Source: Actinomycetes bacterium
GTDB lineage: Bacteria; Actinomycetota; Acidimicrobiia; Spongiisociales; UBA5794
DNA: 32,770 bases
Direction: 5' to 3'
Assembly: GCA_024638645.1 (NCBI GenBank)
Contig: JAHEJX010000037.1
Location: 1 to 32,770 of the forward strand
This document shows positions 12,930 to 32,770 of this stretch, piece after piece. Both the position numbers and the translations under genes were made by a program. Under the pieces are notes generated by a model. The model was not told where the DNA came from, searched no databases, and was given only the letters and a program-made list of their open reading frames with translations. Positions within the stretch are counted from its first letter, which is position 1. Each line of letters opens with the position of its first letter.

Positions 12930-13820
12930 TTAGTCGGCCCGCCAATCGGGGAAGAAGTCACGCGAGGCCCGAGTCAGTCGGGTGCGGTCGGAACCGTCTG
13001 CCGCCATTACCCAGATGGCGATTTCGCCGTTTCGCATCAAGGCGGTGTAAGCGACCTCGGAGCCATCTGGTGAGTACGTCGGAGCGAACTCCCATCGTCG
13101 ATTGGTTCGAGTGATCCGCTCGGCGCGGTCGTCGTCTTCAACCTCGGCCGCCCAGATGTCGCCGCCGCGGCTGAACAAGATGGACTCACCGTCAGGAGAC
13201 CAATCCGGGTGCTCGGCATCCCTTCGGCCGAAAGTGAGCTGCGTGGCATCACTGCCATCGACGTCGACAAGCCAGATGTCCTCGATGAGCTTGTGCCGGC
13301 TCGAGTAGGCGATCCGAGATCCATCCGGCGACCACTCTGGAAACGAGTCAAAACGCTTCTTGGTGAGACGTCGTTTGGACCGTCCGTCGGCCGTTATCAC
13401 CCAGATACTCTGCGAGTCCTTATTGCGCAACGTGTAGGCAATCTCAGTTCCGTCGGGAGCCCACGTCGGCGACCCCTCCTCCATCTTGTCGGTAAAGGTG
13501 AGCTGCCGCTTGTCGCCGCTATCGACGTTCATCACCCACAATTCGCACTGCGTCGGTTCGGCTACTGCGCAACGGGAAAATGCGATTCGGGTCCCGTCGG
13601 CGCTCCAATCCGGCGTTACCTCGTTGAAATTCCTGCTTCGTGTCAGCCGGGAGGTCTGACCGGTCACCCGGTCGACTGTCCAGATGTCGGTCTGTCCCTT
13701 GGTCCAACGGTTCAGCGCGATCTCGCCGTTGCTGCCCGGAAAAGTTGCTGCGGCGTTTGGCGGCGGCACTGTCGCAACCATCGCCAGAGCGACTACGACT
13801 GCGGCCGCGTATCGAATCAT
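12930..13820 (-). CDS. Secreted TolB-like PD40 beta-propeller protein
   Basis: A 296-residue exported protein. A Sec signal peptide (MIRYAAAVVVALAMVATV, then PNAAA) is followed by six TolB/PD40 repeats, each with a version of PxWSPDGxxIAYS: TPDWSADGTRIAFSR, SPTWAPDGTEIAYT, FPEWSPDGSRIAYSS, HPDWSPDGESILFSR, APTYSPDGSEVAYTA and a final FPDWRAD. These form a six-bladed propeller outside the membrane. Actinobacteria lack the Tol-Pal system of Gram-negatives, so the role is probably ligand or protein binding. The start at 13820 follows GGAGGG by a few bases; a longer frame to 13946 would hide the signal peptide. It is divergent from the second subtilase gene, with 230 bases between. Confidence 0.88.
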   Translation of the reverse strand: MIRYAAAVVVALAMVATVPPPNAAATFPGSNGEIALNRWTKGQTDIWTVDRVTGQTSRLTRSRNFNEVTPDWSADGTRIAFSRCAVAEPTQCELWVMNVDSGDKRQLTFTDKMEEGSPTWAPDGTEIAYTLRNKDSQSIWVITADGRSKRRLTKKRFDSFPEWSPDGSRIAYSSRHKLIEDIWLVDVDGSDATQLTFGRRDAEHPDWSPDGESILFSRGGDIWAAEVEDDDRAERITRTNRRWEFAPTYSPDGSEVAYTALMRNGEIAIWVMAADGSDRTRLTRASRDFFPDWRAD

Positions 13821-14050
13821 CCATCCCTCCAGCCCCACGAACGTTCGCAATATTAGGACACGCCCTACAGAACACCTCATGGAGGCAAACGTCTCAGTCG
13901 TAATCGGCGGCTGGACGGACATCTTGCTCGAGCGGTACGTCGACACGAACCCGGTCTAGATGTCTAGTCAGACGGTGCGTCCCGAGAACCATCCTCCGCG
14001 AGCACGGCGGCGCTGTCGATATGTAAATCAATACGGCATAGCGGAGACGG

Positions 14051-15802
14051 ATGACAATGACCACAACGAAGCGAGCCCGCTGGGCTGTTTCCTTCGCAGC
14101 ATTCCTCACCGCCGCTACCGCCCTGGTTGCGGCGCCGGTCACAGCATCGTCTGACACCAGCACCGTGTCGGTGATCGTGCGCGAGACAGCAGACGCGGCC
14201 AATGAAGCCGAGAACTATGTCACCCATCACGGGGGCTCGATCGGCAATCAACTCGCCATTATCGACTCGTTCGAAGCTTCGCTTCCCGCCACGGCCGTCG
14301 CCGATCTCGAAGCTCTCCCCAGCGTTGTGGCTGTCACGCCGAACGCCGCCGTCCAACTCCTCGACTGGGACACTACGCCCGGCCACACCCGCAACACAAT
14401 GGATCGCATCACCAACGACGTGCTCGAGGCGGACAAGTTCTGGAACGACGGCTCCCACGGGCAAGGTATCGACATTGCATTGATCGACTCCGGAGTCGTG
14501 CCTGTTGAAGGCCTCACCGTCGCAGGAAAGATCGTCAACGGGCCCGACCTGTCCTTCGAGTCACAAGCGGACAACCTGATGTATCTGGACACGTACGGAC
14601 ACGGCACGCACCTCGCCGGAATCATGGCCGGCAATGACGGACACGCCTCGAATATCACTACCCATTCTGTCAAGAGGGGATTCCTCGGCGTGGCTCCCGA
14701 GGCCCGCGTGGTATCAATCAAGGTGGCCGACGCCAACGGCAACACCGATGTCTCGCAGGTCATCGCCGCCATTGATTGGGTCGTGCAACACCGCAACGAC
14801 AACGGGCTCAACATCCGGGTGCTCAATCTGTCGTTCGGCACCGATTCGACTCAGGGCTACAGGCTCGACCCGCTGGCATACGCCGCTGAGGTGGCTTGGA
14901 AGCATGGCATCGTCGTCGTAGTCGCTGCCGGTAACGACGGCAACGATTCCCGGCTGCGCAACCCGGCGACGAATCCTTTCGTCATCGCTGTCGGAGCTCT
15001 CGACGCCAACGGGACAAGCCGCACCCGCGACGATTGGCTACCAGGATTCTCGAGCTGCGGAACAGCGACCCGCCACGTGGATGTTCTCGCACCAGGCAAG
15101 TCGATTGTCAGCCTGCGGGCCCCCGGCTCATCAGCGGACCTGGACTTCCCGAACGCAAGGGTCGACGACCGCTACTTCAAGGGCAGCGGCACGTCTCAGG
15201 CAGCCGCCATGGTCTCCGGCGCAGCCGCGCTACTCATCAGCCAGCGGCCCGACCTGACCCCGGACCAGGTCAAGAAGATCCTCGTCGACACCACGGACAC
15301 AGTGTGGTGGATCGCCGACGAGTGCCATGGCGCCGGGTTAATCGATCTGGACGCGGCTGCGAATGCGTCAACGCCATCCGCACTCGCCGCTCTGCAGACA
15401 CACGACCCGGCAACCGGCCTCGGCTCACTAGAGGCAGCTCGCGGCTCGATGCACGTGGCAATGGACGGTGTGGTCCTCATCGGTGAGCAAGACATCTTTG
15501 GACAGTATTGGAACGGCGCCTCCTGGTCTGGAGCATCGTGGAGCGGCGCATCCTGGTCAGGCGGCGAGTGGAACAGCTCGACGTGGACCGGCGCATCGTG
15601 GAGCGGCGCATCGTGGTCAGGAGCATCGTGGAGCGGCGCATCGTGGAGCGGCGCATCGTGGTCAGGAGCTTCCTGGTCCGGCGCTTCGTGGTCGGCCAAC
15701 ACATGGAATGGCGCCTCGTGGTCTGGAGCATCGTGGAGCGGTGCCTCGTGGAGTGGAGCTTCGTGGAGCTCCAACGGATGGCTGGGTGGCTCATGGGACT
15801 GA
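14051..15802 (+). CDS. Secreted S8 subtilase with Trp-periodic C-terminal repeat tail
   Basis: A 583-residue exported serine protease. A signal peptide (about 1-33, ending VTASS) is followed by an I9-like propeptide (about 38-103). The catalytic domain carries Asp146 (IDSG), His184 (GHGTHLAG), Asn295 (AAGNDGN) and Ser382 (GTSQAAAMVSG), all intact. From residue 487 to 582 the chain becomes a pentapeptide repeat, mostly WSGAS, in which a Trp occurs at every fifth residue without exception, 20 times; variants such as EWNSS, TWTGA and TWNGA keep the spacing. Such a tail could pack as a beta structure that binds the cell wall, a polymer or other proteases; its role is unknown. GGAG lies upstream of the ATG, with a second ATG two codons in. 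Confidence 0.9.
   Translation: MTMTTTKRARWAVSFAAFLTAATALVAAPVTASSDTSTVSVIVRETADAANEAENYVTHHGGSIGNQLAIIDSFEASLPATAVADLEALPSVVAVTPNAAVQLLDWDTTPGHTRNTMDRITNDVLEADKFWNDGSHGQGIDIALIDSGVVPVEGLTVAGKIVNGPDLSFESQADNLMYLDTYGHGTHLAGIMAGNDGHASNITTHSVKRGFLGVAPEARVVSIKVADANGNTDVSQVIAAIDWVVQHRNDNGLNIRVLNLSFGTDSTQGYRLDPLAYAAEVAWKHGIVVVVAAGNDGNDSRLRNPATNPFVIAVGALDANGTSRTRDDWLPGFSSCGTATRHVDVLAPGKSIVSLRAPGSSADLDFPNARVDDRYFKGSGTSQAAAMVSGAAALLISQRPDLTPDQVKKILVDTTDTVWWIADECHGAGLIDLDAAANASTPSALAALQTHDPATGLGSLEAARGSMHVAMDGVVLIGEQDIFGQYWNGASWSGASWSGASWSGGEWNSSTWTGASWSGASWSGASWSGASWSGASWSGASWSGASWSANTWNGASWSGASWSGASWSGASWSSNGWLGGSWD
15509..15799 (+). repeat. 15-bp tandem repeat encoding WSGAS pentapeptides
   Basis: An in-frame tandem array of a 15-base unit close to TGGAGCGGCGCATCG, with synonymous and a few amino-acid-changing differences between copies (TCC/TCG, GGA/GGC, GCA/GCC/GCT). 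It encodes the C-terminal 96 residues of the subtilase. Period and reading frame never slip over 19-20 units. Nearly identical neighbouring copies suggest expansion and contraction by recombination or slippage. Confidence 0.9.
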
Positions 15803-15899: not shown

Positions 15900-16094
15900 G
15901 GAGGCGTGACGCCCTACCTCGACCACTCCCCTGAGGTTGATCGGAGCAACAGCTACCCCAATGCACTGTCTGGCCCCATGCCGGGTAGCGAGTCGCGGGG
16001 ATGGGCCGGAATCCTCTACTGGTGTTGACGCTCCTGGAGGATGATGTTGTCAGCAGACCTCCGGCCTGCGGCGCGCAGAGTAGGAGGCGAAGCG

Positions 16095-17342
16095 ATGGGT
16101 ATCGCAAGTGTTCTCCACCACCACCGGATAGTTGCAGTATTGGCGTGCCTGCTGTTGGTCACGGCATGCGGGTCGGCCGACCAGGAGCCCACCACGAGCT
16201 CTCCGGTGGCGTCGACCTCGGCCCCGACCACTGCGGCACCTACTACGGGCCCGCCTGCGACCACAGTGGCGCCACCGACAACATCGTCCACGGCACCGAC
16301 TACGACGAGCCCTCCAGCTACGACGACCACGACCCCGCCAACCACGACCACGACTACGACCACCACCACCACAACGACAACAACGACGCTGCTGCCGCCG
16401 CCTCCCTTCGTCGGCTCGACCAAGCCGGTGAGCGGGCCTGGTAGCGGTTTCGGCCAGCTGGAAGAGACCCGGATGGCCCAGCATGTCAACTACGACCGGT
16501 TCGTTCTCGAATTCGAAGAGCACGTGCCCGCGTACGACATCGCATATGCCCATCCGCCGTTCATCGACATCCCAGGCAACATGGTCGGCGTGTGCGGGAA
16601 TGCCTTCCTCGCCGTGAACCTCCATGGAGCCTCCACGGTCGACTGGGAGGAGTCCGCCGGTGAAGACATCGTCCTGTCCTACGAGGGCCCATGGCGAGTC
16701 ACTGCCACTACGGACAACTACACAGAGGCCGTCTTCGTCACAGACTTCGAGTCGGACATGGAGTGGATCGTCGGGCTGGCGGATCGGGTTCCCTTCCGAG
16801 TCATCGAGTTGGCTAGCCCGGCGCGGCTGGTCATCGACGTCGGCCACGGCGATGTCACCAAGGCTGAGATCCCCACGCAGATGATCGACGGCAAGGGCAC
16901 CGGTTTCGGCTGGATGGCCGACTCTCGCCTGGCGGGCCACGACACGTTCGATCGCTTTGTGATCCAGTTCCGCGGCGGGTACCAACCCGGAGACGACTAC
17001 CCCGAGCCCGGCAGGCCCAACTACATGATCCACTACGCGACCGGCCCCTTTGGGGGCTGCGACGCAACGGATCTGATCCCGGTCGACGGTGATGCGTTCA
17101 TCATGGTCGAGCTGCGGCCGGCAACCGGTACGGACTGGAACGTCGACCCGCCACGGGTCATCTACACAGGGGAGAATCGACTGGCCGCCGACACCGTCAA
17201 CATCACGGAGGCGGTGCTGGCCGGCGAATGTGAAGGAATCCAATGGGTGATCGGCGTGGATGCGGTAACGACGTTCAGCGTGACCTGGATGACAAACCCG
17301 CTGCGCCTGGTGATCGACGTCCCGCATGTGACGGTGGATTGA
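16095..17342 (+). CDS. Lipoprotein with poly-Thr linker and two AMIN-like domains
   Basis: A 415-residue lipoprotein: signal peptide with lipobox LLVTAC (lipidated Cys25), a long Thr/Pro/Ser linker (about 31-100, including an unbroken run of about 16 Thr), then two homologous AMIN-like domains at about 115-265 and 285-410. The repeat is visible from paired motifs: GSGFGQLEETRMAQHVNYDRFVLEF versus a matching GTGFGWMADSRLAGH and DRFVIQF block, and closing SPARLVIDV versus NPLRLVIDV. AMIN domains bind peptidoglycan or septal/cell-wall partners; this group is common in actinobacterial lipoproteins. The start at 16095 is fixed by GGAGG seven bases upstream; an earlier in-frame ATG at 16041 would mask the signal peptide. 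Confidence 0.85.
   Translation: MGIASVLHHHRIVAVLACLLLVTACGSADQEPTTSSPVASTSAPTTAAPTTGPPATTVAPPTTSSTAPTTTSPPATTTTTPPTTTTTTTTTTTTTTTTLLPPPPFVGSTKPVSGPGSGFGQLEETRMAQHVNYDRFVLEFEEHVPAYDIAYAHPPFIDIPGNMVGVCGNAFLAVNLHGASTVDWEESAGEDIVLSYEGPWRVTATTDNYTEAVFVTDFESDMEWIVGLADRVPFRVIELASPARLVIDVGHGDVTKAEIPTQMIDGKGTGFGWMADSRLAGHDTFDRFVIQFRGGYQPGDDYPEPGRPNYMIHYATGPFGGCDATDLIPVDGDAFIMVELRPATGTDWNVDPPRVIYTGENRLAADTVNITEAVLAGECEGIQWVIGVDAVTTFSVTWMTNPLRLVIDVPHVTVD

Positions 17343-32226: not shown

Positions 32227-32770
<544 letters not shown>

Follow-up and report, generated by a model that had tools for sequence, protein, structure and literature searches.

Secreted Subtilases with a Tryptophan-Repeat Tail Are Genomically Linked to a Polytopic Membrane Sensor

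Pentapeptide-repeat domains (PF00805) form a right-handed quadrilateral beta-helix. AgrD-AgrC and ComX-ComP are peptide-receptor pairs in which the receptors, AgrC and ComP, are polytopic. For most c-di-GMP enzymes with a polytopic membrane sensor the input has, to our knowledge, yet to be found. A published account of pentapeptide repeats gives the consensus (A/C/S/V/T/L/I)(D/N/S/K/E/I/R)(L/F)(S/T/R/E/Q/K/V/D)(G/D/E/N/R/Q/K) and counts as members proteins with at least eight contiguous five-residue repeats (PMC8145042). The Phr pheromones of Bacillus, including duplicated copies, are matured by extracellular proteases (PMC11343458). In Caulobacter, YjbI is described as a secreted surface pentapeptide-repeat protein that silences envelope two-component systems, which become activated when YjbI is lost by proteolysis (PMC12864828).

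The window, by which we mean the whole stretch of 32,770 nucleotides analyzed, encodes a protease whose C-terminal end resembles these repeats in part. Its features are as follows.

14051..15802, + strand: secreted S8 subtilase with a Trp-repeat tail, 583 amino acids (open reading frame, translation, PF00082)
14051..14152, + strand: Sec-type signal peptide, about residues 1-34, end approximate (judged by eye)
14156..14365, + strand: I9-like propeptide region, about residues 36-105 (PF05922 below cutoff, AlphaFold)
14459..15295, + strand: Peptidase_S8 domain, residues 137-415 (PF00082)
15416..15508, + strand: conserved linker GLGSLEAARGS..GEQDIFG, residues 456-486 (alignment, AlphaFold)
15509..15799, + strand: tail with 20 Trp at five-residue spacing, commonest unit W-S-G-A-S (translation)

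By eye, the signal peptide consists of KRAR, a hydrophobic stretch and an A-x-A-like end. PF05922 scores 12.7 bits on the window protein (cutoff 21.2) and matches 6 of 66 aligned family members at E <= 0.01; the AlphaFold model is mostly confident over this region. PF00082 lies above its curated cutoff (E 7.9e-42, 144 bits versus 21.8) and matches all 66 aligned sequences at E <= 0.01. The protein has D146, H184 and S382, which we take to be the catalytic residues, and N295, presumably the oxyanion residue, so that the Asp-His-Ser triad and oxyanion Asn are intact; N295 and S382 are invariant among the 66 sequences, and D146 and H184 are at least 90% conserved. The best NCBIfam match is the type VII secretion system (T7SS) mycosin family (TIGR03921), with which the protease shares the S8 fold; at 154.4 bits it is far under the curated cutoff of 278.75, and the identity was rejected. 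Mycosins carry a C-terminal membrane helix, whereas the window protease ends in the Trp tail, which follows a linker modeled with pLDDT block means of 85 to 97.

The 486 residues ahead of the tail contain 8 Trp. In the tail, which comprises the last 97 residues and runs from base 15509 to the last sense codon at 15799, Trp occupies residues 487, 492, 497 and so on to 582, and the protein stops 1 residue past the last of them. The earlier note had reported Trp at every fifth residue, 20 times, and translation confirms this, with 19 of 19 intervals exactly 5; such spacing arose in none of 20,000 composition-preserving shuffles of the 97 residues. WSGAS is exact in 11 of the 19 complete units. 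The other eight (WNGAS twice, WSGGE, WNSST, WTGAS, WSANT, WSSNG and WLGGS) all keep W, so the spacing is indeed unbroken where other residues vary, as had been claimed. The 11 WSGAS units are encoded by 8 different DNA sequences with a mean mutual difference of 3.3 of 15 bases, and both Ser codon families occur in the tail.

Comparison with PF00805 repeats gives a mixed picture. Both have a five-residue period, Ser/Thr and Gly positions and a hydrophobic residue at one fixed position, and the tail, with 19 contiguous five-residue intervals, exceeds the eight repeats required. Read as x-S/T-W-S/T-G, however, it has a central Trp where the family has Leu/Phe, a residue outside the consensus as printed (PMC8145042), and Ser/Thr is usual before that Trp. 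Another difference is that Arg, His, Asn and Gln are not rare two residues before Trp in the tails (this x, position 4 of the W-first unit, is Asn or Arg in 8% each, His in 3% and Gln or Lys in 2%). PF00805 scores 12.9 bits on the window protein, under its cutoff of 20.2, and matches 1 of the 66 aligned sequences at E <= 0.01. The tail was therefore rejected as an ordinary pentapeptide-repeat domain, and the likeness was kept.

A profile of 17 tails matched eight PDB sequences up to E 10, with E-values that carry no composition control: three QnrB1 and one Qnr (from 2.5e-4, the best, a QnrB1, to 6.1e-4), the thylakoid lumenal 15 kDa protein (2.6e-3), an antibody light chain (9.9e-3), an RFR-domain pentapeptide protein (0.88) and the designed protein 4yfo (0.97). 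The lumenal and designed proteins are presumably pentapeptide-type solenoids as well. Single-stretch E-values are weaker (QnrB1 0.16 to 0.21, Qnr 0.0023, lumenal protein 0.0035), and Trp is for the most part aligned with the Leu/Phe position. In the full-length AlphaFold model confidence holds up to about residue 510, with pLDDT < 50 for nearly all of 513-583, and modeling the tail by itself gave a mean pLDDT of 35; neither contains a confident repeat fold. A regular stack, as suggested earlier, may or may not form: the PDB matches of the profile are mainly to pentapeptide-repeat beta-helices, but the AlphaFold models do not bear it out.

Tails of this kind are widespread among relatives. The protein has a match at E <= 1e-3 in 41 of 60 related genomes, many of these being ordinary subtilases only. 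Among the 20 best relative loci (L006 to L025), a W-x4 tail passes the filter in 19 (L006 to L024, the unit of L024 being WGNLT) and was not detected by the filter in L025. Close relatives without the tail, or with random Trp spacing, had been proposed as the sign of a neutral expansion, and this is not the pattern found. Some relative matches end before the tail, and L002, from the window's own genome, is cut by a contig end. A further search, across 84,980 species with one genome per species, used the tail family's own linker and is uninformative on tails without proteases; it gave 161 stretches, of which 95 were confirmed and the best 80 kept, representing 79 loci. In all 80 open reading frames from these loci the tail is present at least in part and a regular expression finds an S8 active-site motif upstream of it. 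By record titles, the loci are mainly from Acidimicrobiia and other Actinomycetota (Frankiales, Dactylosporangium, Couchioplanes, Pilimelia, Spirilliplanes, Geodermatophilus, Blastococcus, Kineococcus and Thermoleophilia), with some from Chloroflexi and Dormibacterota.

The unit varies among these proteins (WSGAS, WSGLS, WSGVS, WSGTS, WSGST, WSGRT, WSGHT, WSGAG and others) with W fixed. In these 80 open reading frames, 1,225 of 1,270 Trp-Trp intervals are divisible by five (1,140 of 5, 70 of 10, 14 of 15 and 1 of 20), which supports the earlier proposal that what selection maintains is the period of Trp and not the exact repeat. Of the 101 Trp-phase positions without Trp, 43 are occupied by F, L, M, Y, I or V and 31 by Ala; at other phases of these stretches the same six residues occupy 54 of 744 positions. 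The protein ends exactly 1 residue past the last Trp in 51 of the 80, some of which are cut by contig ends. In the 76 arrays with at least 8 units, identity at position 4 is 0.40 within arrays versus 0.13 between arrays, and the 512 copies of each protein's commonest unit comprise 362 distinct DNA sequences. A 20-residue coil of four units was considered and rejected: in 57 long arrays mean unit identity peaks at a lag of 2 (0.638) and is 0.600 at a lag of 4. In some tails (L097, L102 and L103) the units clearly alternate with a 10-residue period.

Several further variants were seen. At L026 and L137 (G031:C5), more distant S8 proteases lie in tandem and carry a six-residue Trp repeat (GLAWSN, GLAWNN); that genome has no sensor-domain match (see below for the sensor). 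A very regular tail with more than 20 WSGQA units adjoins a sensor at L141:2131-3708. Tail proteases occur in tandem at L040:4570-8365, G052:C108 and G040:C58, both L040 copies having the WSGST unit. In many proteins (L049, L061, L066, L069, L101 and others) a Cys pair, possibly a disulfide, flanks a Trp-phase position near the start of the tail, in forms such as CWCG, CLCA and CFCS.

The nearest named orthologue, L035 from an Acidimicrobiaceae metagenome-assembled genome (MAG), is 86% identical to the window protein over linker and tail. From GEQDIFG on, the two share 52 identical codons and differ by 47 synonymous and 7 nonsynonymous ones, none of the 7 falling in a perfect WSGAS unit; over 200 catalytic codons the counts are 102, 77 and 21. 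Our results demonstrate that the Trp-repeat tail is under purifying, protein-level selection, since synonymous differences far outnumber nonsynonymous ones. Together with the tails in relatives, this divergence also rules out a repeat expansion confined to the window.

Clustering of neighboring open reading frames revealed a recurrent multidomain gene directly downstream of the tail protease. Pfam searches on 35 members found GAF in 23, GGDEF in 22, EAL in 21, and HisKA and HATPase_c in 9 each. They share an N-terminal domain, hereafter the sensor domain, of about 240 residues, in which roughly six or seven hydrophobic segments are joined by loops no longer than 17 residues; L059 and L108 are members that lack it. 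The domain appears distantly MASE9-like: PF20972 matches 10 of 32 trimmed sensor domains weakly at E <= 1 and one of 35 full-length sensors at E 4e-5, close to the cutoff, but the best trimmed domain (E 5.3e-4, 20.4 bits) is below the Pfam cutoff of 24.3. A sensor domain is present in 56 of the 79 named loci and in 41 of the 50 that are flanked by 2.5 kb or more on either side; in most cases it lies 40 to 320 bases downstream of the tail gene on the same strand, and in some loci upstream. Such pairs occur in Blastococcus (L103), Pilimelia (L071), Kineococcus (L090), Spirilliplanes (L084) and Couchioplanes (L065), and in Geodermatophilus (L097) tail gene and sensor gene are separated by 2.2 kb. 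It is absent from nine well-flanked loci (L040, L052, L059, L063, L064, L091, L105, L108 and L111); L059, L063 and L064 are the only three loci from Dactylosporangium. By motif, the 56 sensors comprise 36 with GGDEF and EAL, 3 with GGDEF, 1 with EAL, 9 kinases (H-box) and 7 that are short or unassigned.

In a sample of 396 genomes of the phylum, the sensor domain (E <= 1e-10) was found in 67 and the tail (E <= 1e-6) in 44. All 37 genomes with a tail at E <= 1e-8 have the sensor, compared with 30 of the 359 others (Fisher p 6e-34, with genomes treated as independent and relatedness uncorrected). This count leaves out 7 genomes with weaker tails, 5 of which have no sensor match (G097, G147, G149, G297 and G431); with these included, the sensor is present in 39 of 44. 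In a smaller sample of 149 genomes, which overlaps the larger one, 24 of 24 tail genomes and 11 of 125 others have it, and among 60 close relatives a hand count gave 20 of 21 with a strong protease match (E < 1e-60) versus 5 of 39 others. Tail loci lie within 3 kb of a sensor in 43 of 54 cases, with about 0.2 expected for 3.5-Mb genomes, and 41 of these 43 are upstream of the sensor on the same strand. Among the 11 nonadjacent tail loci, G101:C313 and G084:C142 adjoin a weaker, subthreshold sensor match, some are at contig ends, and the remainder count as unpaired. Conversely, 66 of the 106 sensor places in the phylum sample have no tail match within 3 kb. The sensor model favors tail-linked sensors because it was built from them, and many of the genomes are fragmented MAGs. 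These data establish that the repeat is genomically tied to the sensor.

The window's own copy is an exception. No sensor lies beside its tail gene within the window, and none was found in the short fragments that carry its orthologues L006 and L035. Its genome encodes two sensor genes elsewhere, one of them divergent from the protease relative that is cut by a contig end (L002), and only one tail was found in this 85%-complete assembly.

We examined 38 sensor loci without a clear tail protease, of which L131, L158 and L159 had been flagged beforehand by a short or weak-frame tail match, with the search beside the sensors confined to repeats and Trp. At nine the neighbor is a divergent S8 or S8-plus-Trp-repeat protein (L120, L122, L132, L162, L165, L168, L169, L170 and L172), six have a protease-free repeat protein, and at 23 this search found no partner. 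Among the nine, no Trp repeat was seen at L120, the repeat is short in L165 and L168, the L168 gene lies downstream of the sensor, and at L172 a contig end leaves only the repeat visible. With L138, which comes from outside the 38, protease-free repeats stand beside the sensor in seven loci, representing four families.

L131: signal peptide (by eye), GNTWT in 10-residue units
L133: 127 amino acids, signal peptide (by eye), 11 GISWT with spacers of 1, 3 or 9 residues
L138: signal peptide (by eye), 18 GASLT, PF00805 E 1.8e-30
L158: GVNWA at period 5, cut by contig end
L159: 36 amino acids, MTRKTD(GATWA)6
L163: 41 amino acids, five GTSWG at period 8, three residues between
L164: 38 amino acids, three DGWSWT at period 10

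Four of these (L158, L159, L163 and L164) are from one genus, and by eye ribosome-binding-like sequences precede the stand-alone small genes. The core motif is G-x-S/T-W-like, with the exceptions of L158 (Asn for Ser/Thr), L164 (D-G-W-S-W-T) and L138, a bona fide pentapeptide-repeat protein with a central Leu rather than Trp. Fused tails as a rule have five-residue spacing, and three of the seven stand-alone forms retain it (L138, L158 and L159). In these seven loci the protease is unnecessary for the tie between repeat and sensor, and it therefore looks as though the repeat, not the protease, is the sensor's partner.

The reading that we favor, to which we would assign slightly less than an even chance, is that the tail is a secreted, multicopy Trp-pentapeptide module (core G-x-S/T-W) working with a polytopic membrane sensor that is usually encoded next door. 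The array would most likely be displayed outside the membrane, where the sensor would read its presence or state; the fused subtilase would supply or regulate it, and the output would be c-di-GMP turnover (GGDEF-EAL) or histidine kinase activity. Although being neighbors in the genome is not the same as binding, we infer that repeat and sensor are in physical contact, that the repeat acts while the array is whole and not through peptides released from it, and that the window copy, which lacks an adjacent sensor, acts on sensors whose genes lie elsewhere in its genome. YjbI would be a parallel, being an extracytoplasmic repeat protein that acts on sensor pathways with proteolysis as the switch; it is from a Gram-negative bacterium, however, its sensors are apparently of another type, and the likeness is so far one of description (PMC12864828).

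Four readings of the tail were weighed. A neutral repeat expansion without function would fit the differences among proteins in copy number and in position 4, but we consider it very improbable given the synonymous divergence with protein identity, both in the arrays and versus L035, and the retention of the tail in at least three phyla by record titles. Alternatively, the tail could be a beta-solenoid-like rod, an anchor or adhesin that fixes the protease to the cell wall or to a polysaccharide, the sensor being merely coregulated. The match of the tail profile to pentapeptide-repeat structures (best QnrB1, E 2.5e-4), the strict phase with hydrophobic substitutions at the Trp position and the precedent of a secreted pentapeptide-repeat protein on the Caulobacter surface (PMC12864828) all speak for such a rod. 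It is nonetheless unlikely in our judgment: the tail is modeled with low pLDDT, the motif period is 6, 8, 10 or 14 rather than 5 in L131, L133, L163 and L164, and the sensor in all 37 tail genomes is left unexplained. The roles offered in the earlier note, namely, adhesin, polysaccharide-binding surface or anchor, have thus found no support so far, and the gene context indicates signal transduction instead.

The remaining explanation shares the sensor with our favored reading and differs in what is sensed: the array would be a propheromone, a stock of short Trp peptides that the fused subtilase, or other proteases, would excise and the neighboring polytopic receptor would perceive as a signal. 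Small stand-alone genes beside sensors (36, 38, 41 and 127 amino acids), a unit homogenized within proteins and differing between them (position 4, 0.40 versus 0.13) and a sensor domain made of hydrophobic segments with short loops speak for it, and Phr pheromones freed by extracellular proteases offer a precedent (PMC11343458). Against it, most fused tails are free of spacers and keep the Trp phase through differing units, identity between neighboring units falls below 0.6 in 24 of the 57 long arrays, the complete leaderless peptides of L159, L163 and L164 have no export signal by eye, and L138 carries Leu. We regard the propheromone as unlikely, slightly less so than the anchor. An intact displayed array accounts for the strict phase, for the irregular units that are nevertheless conserved and for the C-terminal end that many tails share, whereas small stand-alone genes and units specific to a lineage are better accounted for by released peptides. 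Once protease distance is removed, the partial correlation between unit type and sensor type is 0.21 to 0.22 (permutation p 0.0005), and that of unit type with protease, sensor removed, is 0.17 to 0.19 (p 0.0005 to 0.014; partial Mantel, 49 pairs). Coevolution of unit and sensor was rejected on this basis, and the correlation, being weak and little above that with the protease, does not decide between intact array and released peptides.

Were peptides released, this would be a new peptide-signaling system of Actinomycetota and neighboring phyla, a doubtful prospect at present, in which tandem Trp-pentapeptide precursors, stand-alone or fused to a processing subtilase, would be recognized by a polytopic receptor controlling c-di-GMP or a kinase cascade, the units diverging by lineage like pheromone types. 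The precursor gene adjoins the putative receptor gene at 43 of 54 tail loci and not at the window copy. In Phr-Rap, AgrD-AgrC and ComX-ComP, likewise, a small, sometimes repeated peptide gene adjoins the receptor gene, and extracellular proteases participate in Phr maturation (PMC11343458). Rap receptors are cytoplasmic, however, and here the subtilase is usually fused to the repeat. Unlike in Phr-Rap, AgrD-AgrC and ComX-ComP, copies here commonly number 13 to 20 and the output is c-di-GMP or a kinase. The gene pair names the repeat protein as candidate partner for a sensor domain found in 67 of 396 sampled phylum genomes, and the favored reading, if true, would give a function to Trp-type pentapeptide repeats. 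The stand-alone forms of 36 to 41 residues are short enough for synthesis and direct testing. Our search of the open-access literature found no publication on the Trp-repeat tail or on the tail-sensor gene pair.

Other features of the window were observed as well. Antisense repeat open reading frames over the tail are mirror frames and were discarded. Downstream, 16041-17342 (+ strand) encodes a product with a long run of Thr and two stretches that resemble AMIN (PF24837, E 9.6e-40); by eye it is lipoprotein-like. Upstream and divergent from the protease, 12930-13946 (- strand) encodes a TolB-like PD40 beta-propeller protein. Finally, a hexanucleotide repeat of 12 ACCACG copies occupies 32505-32578.
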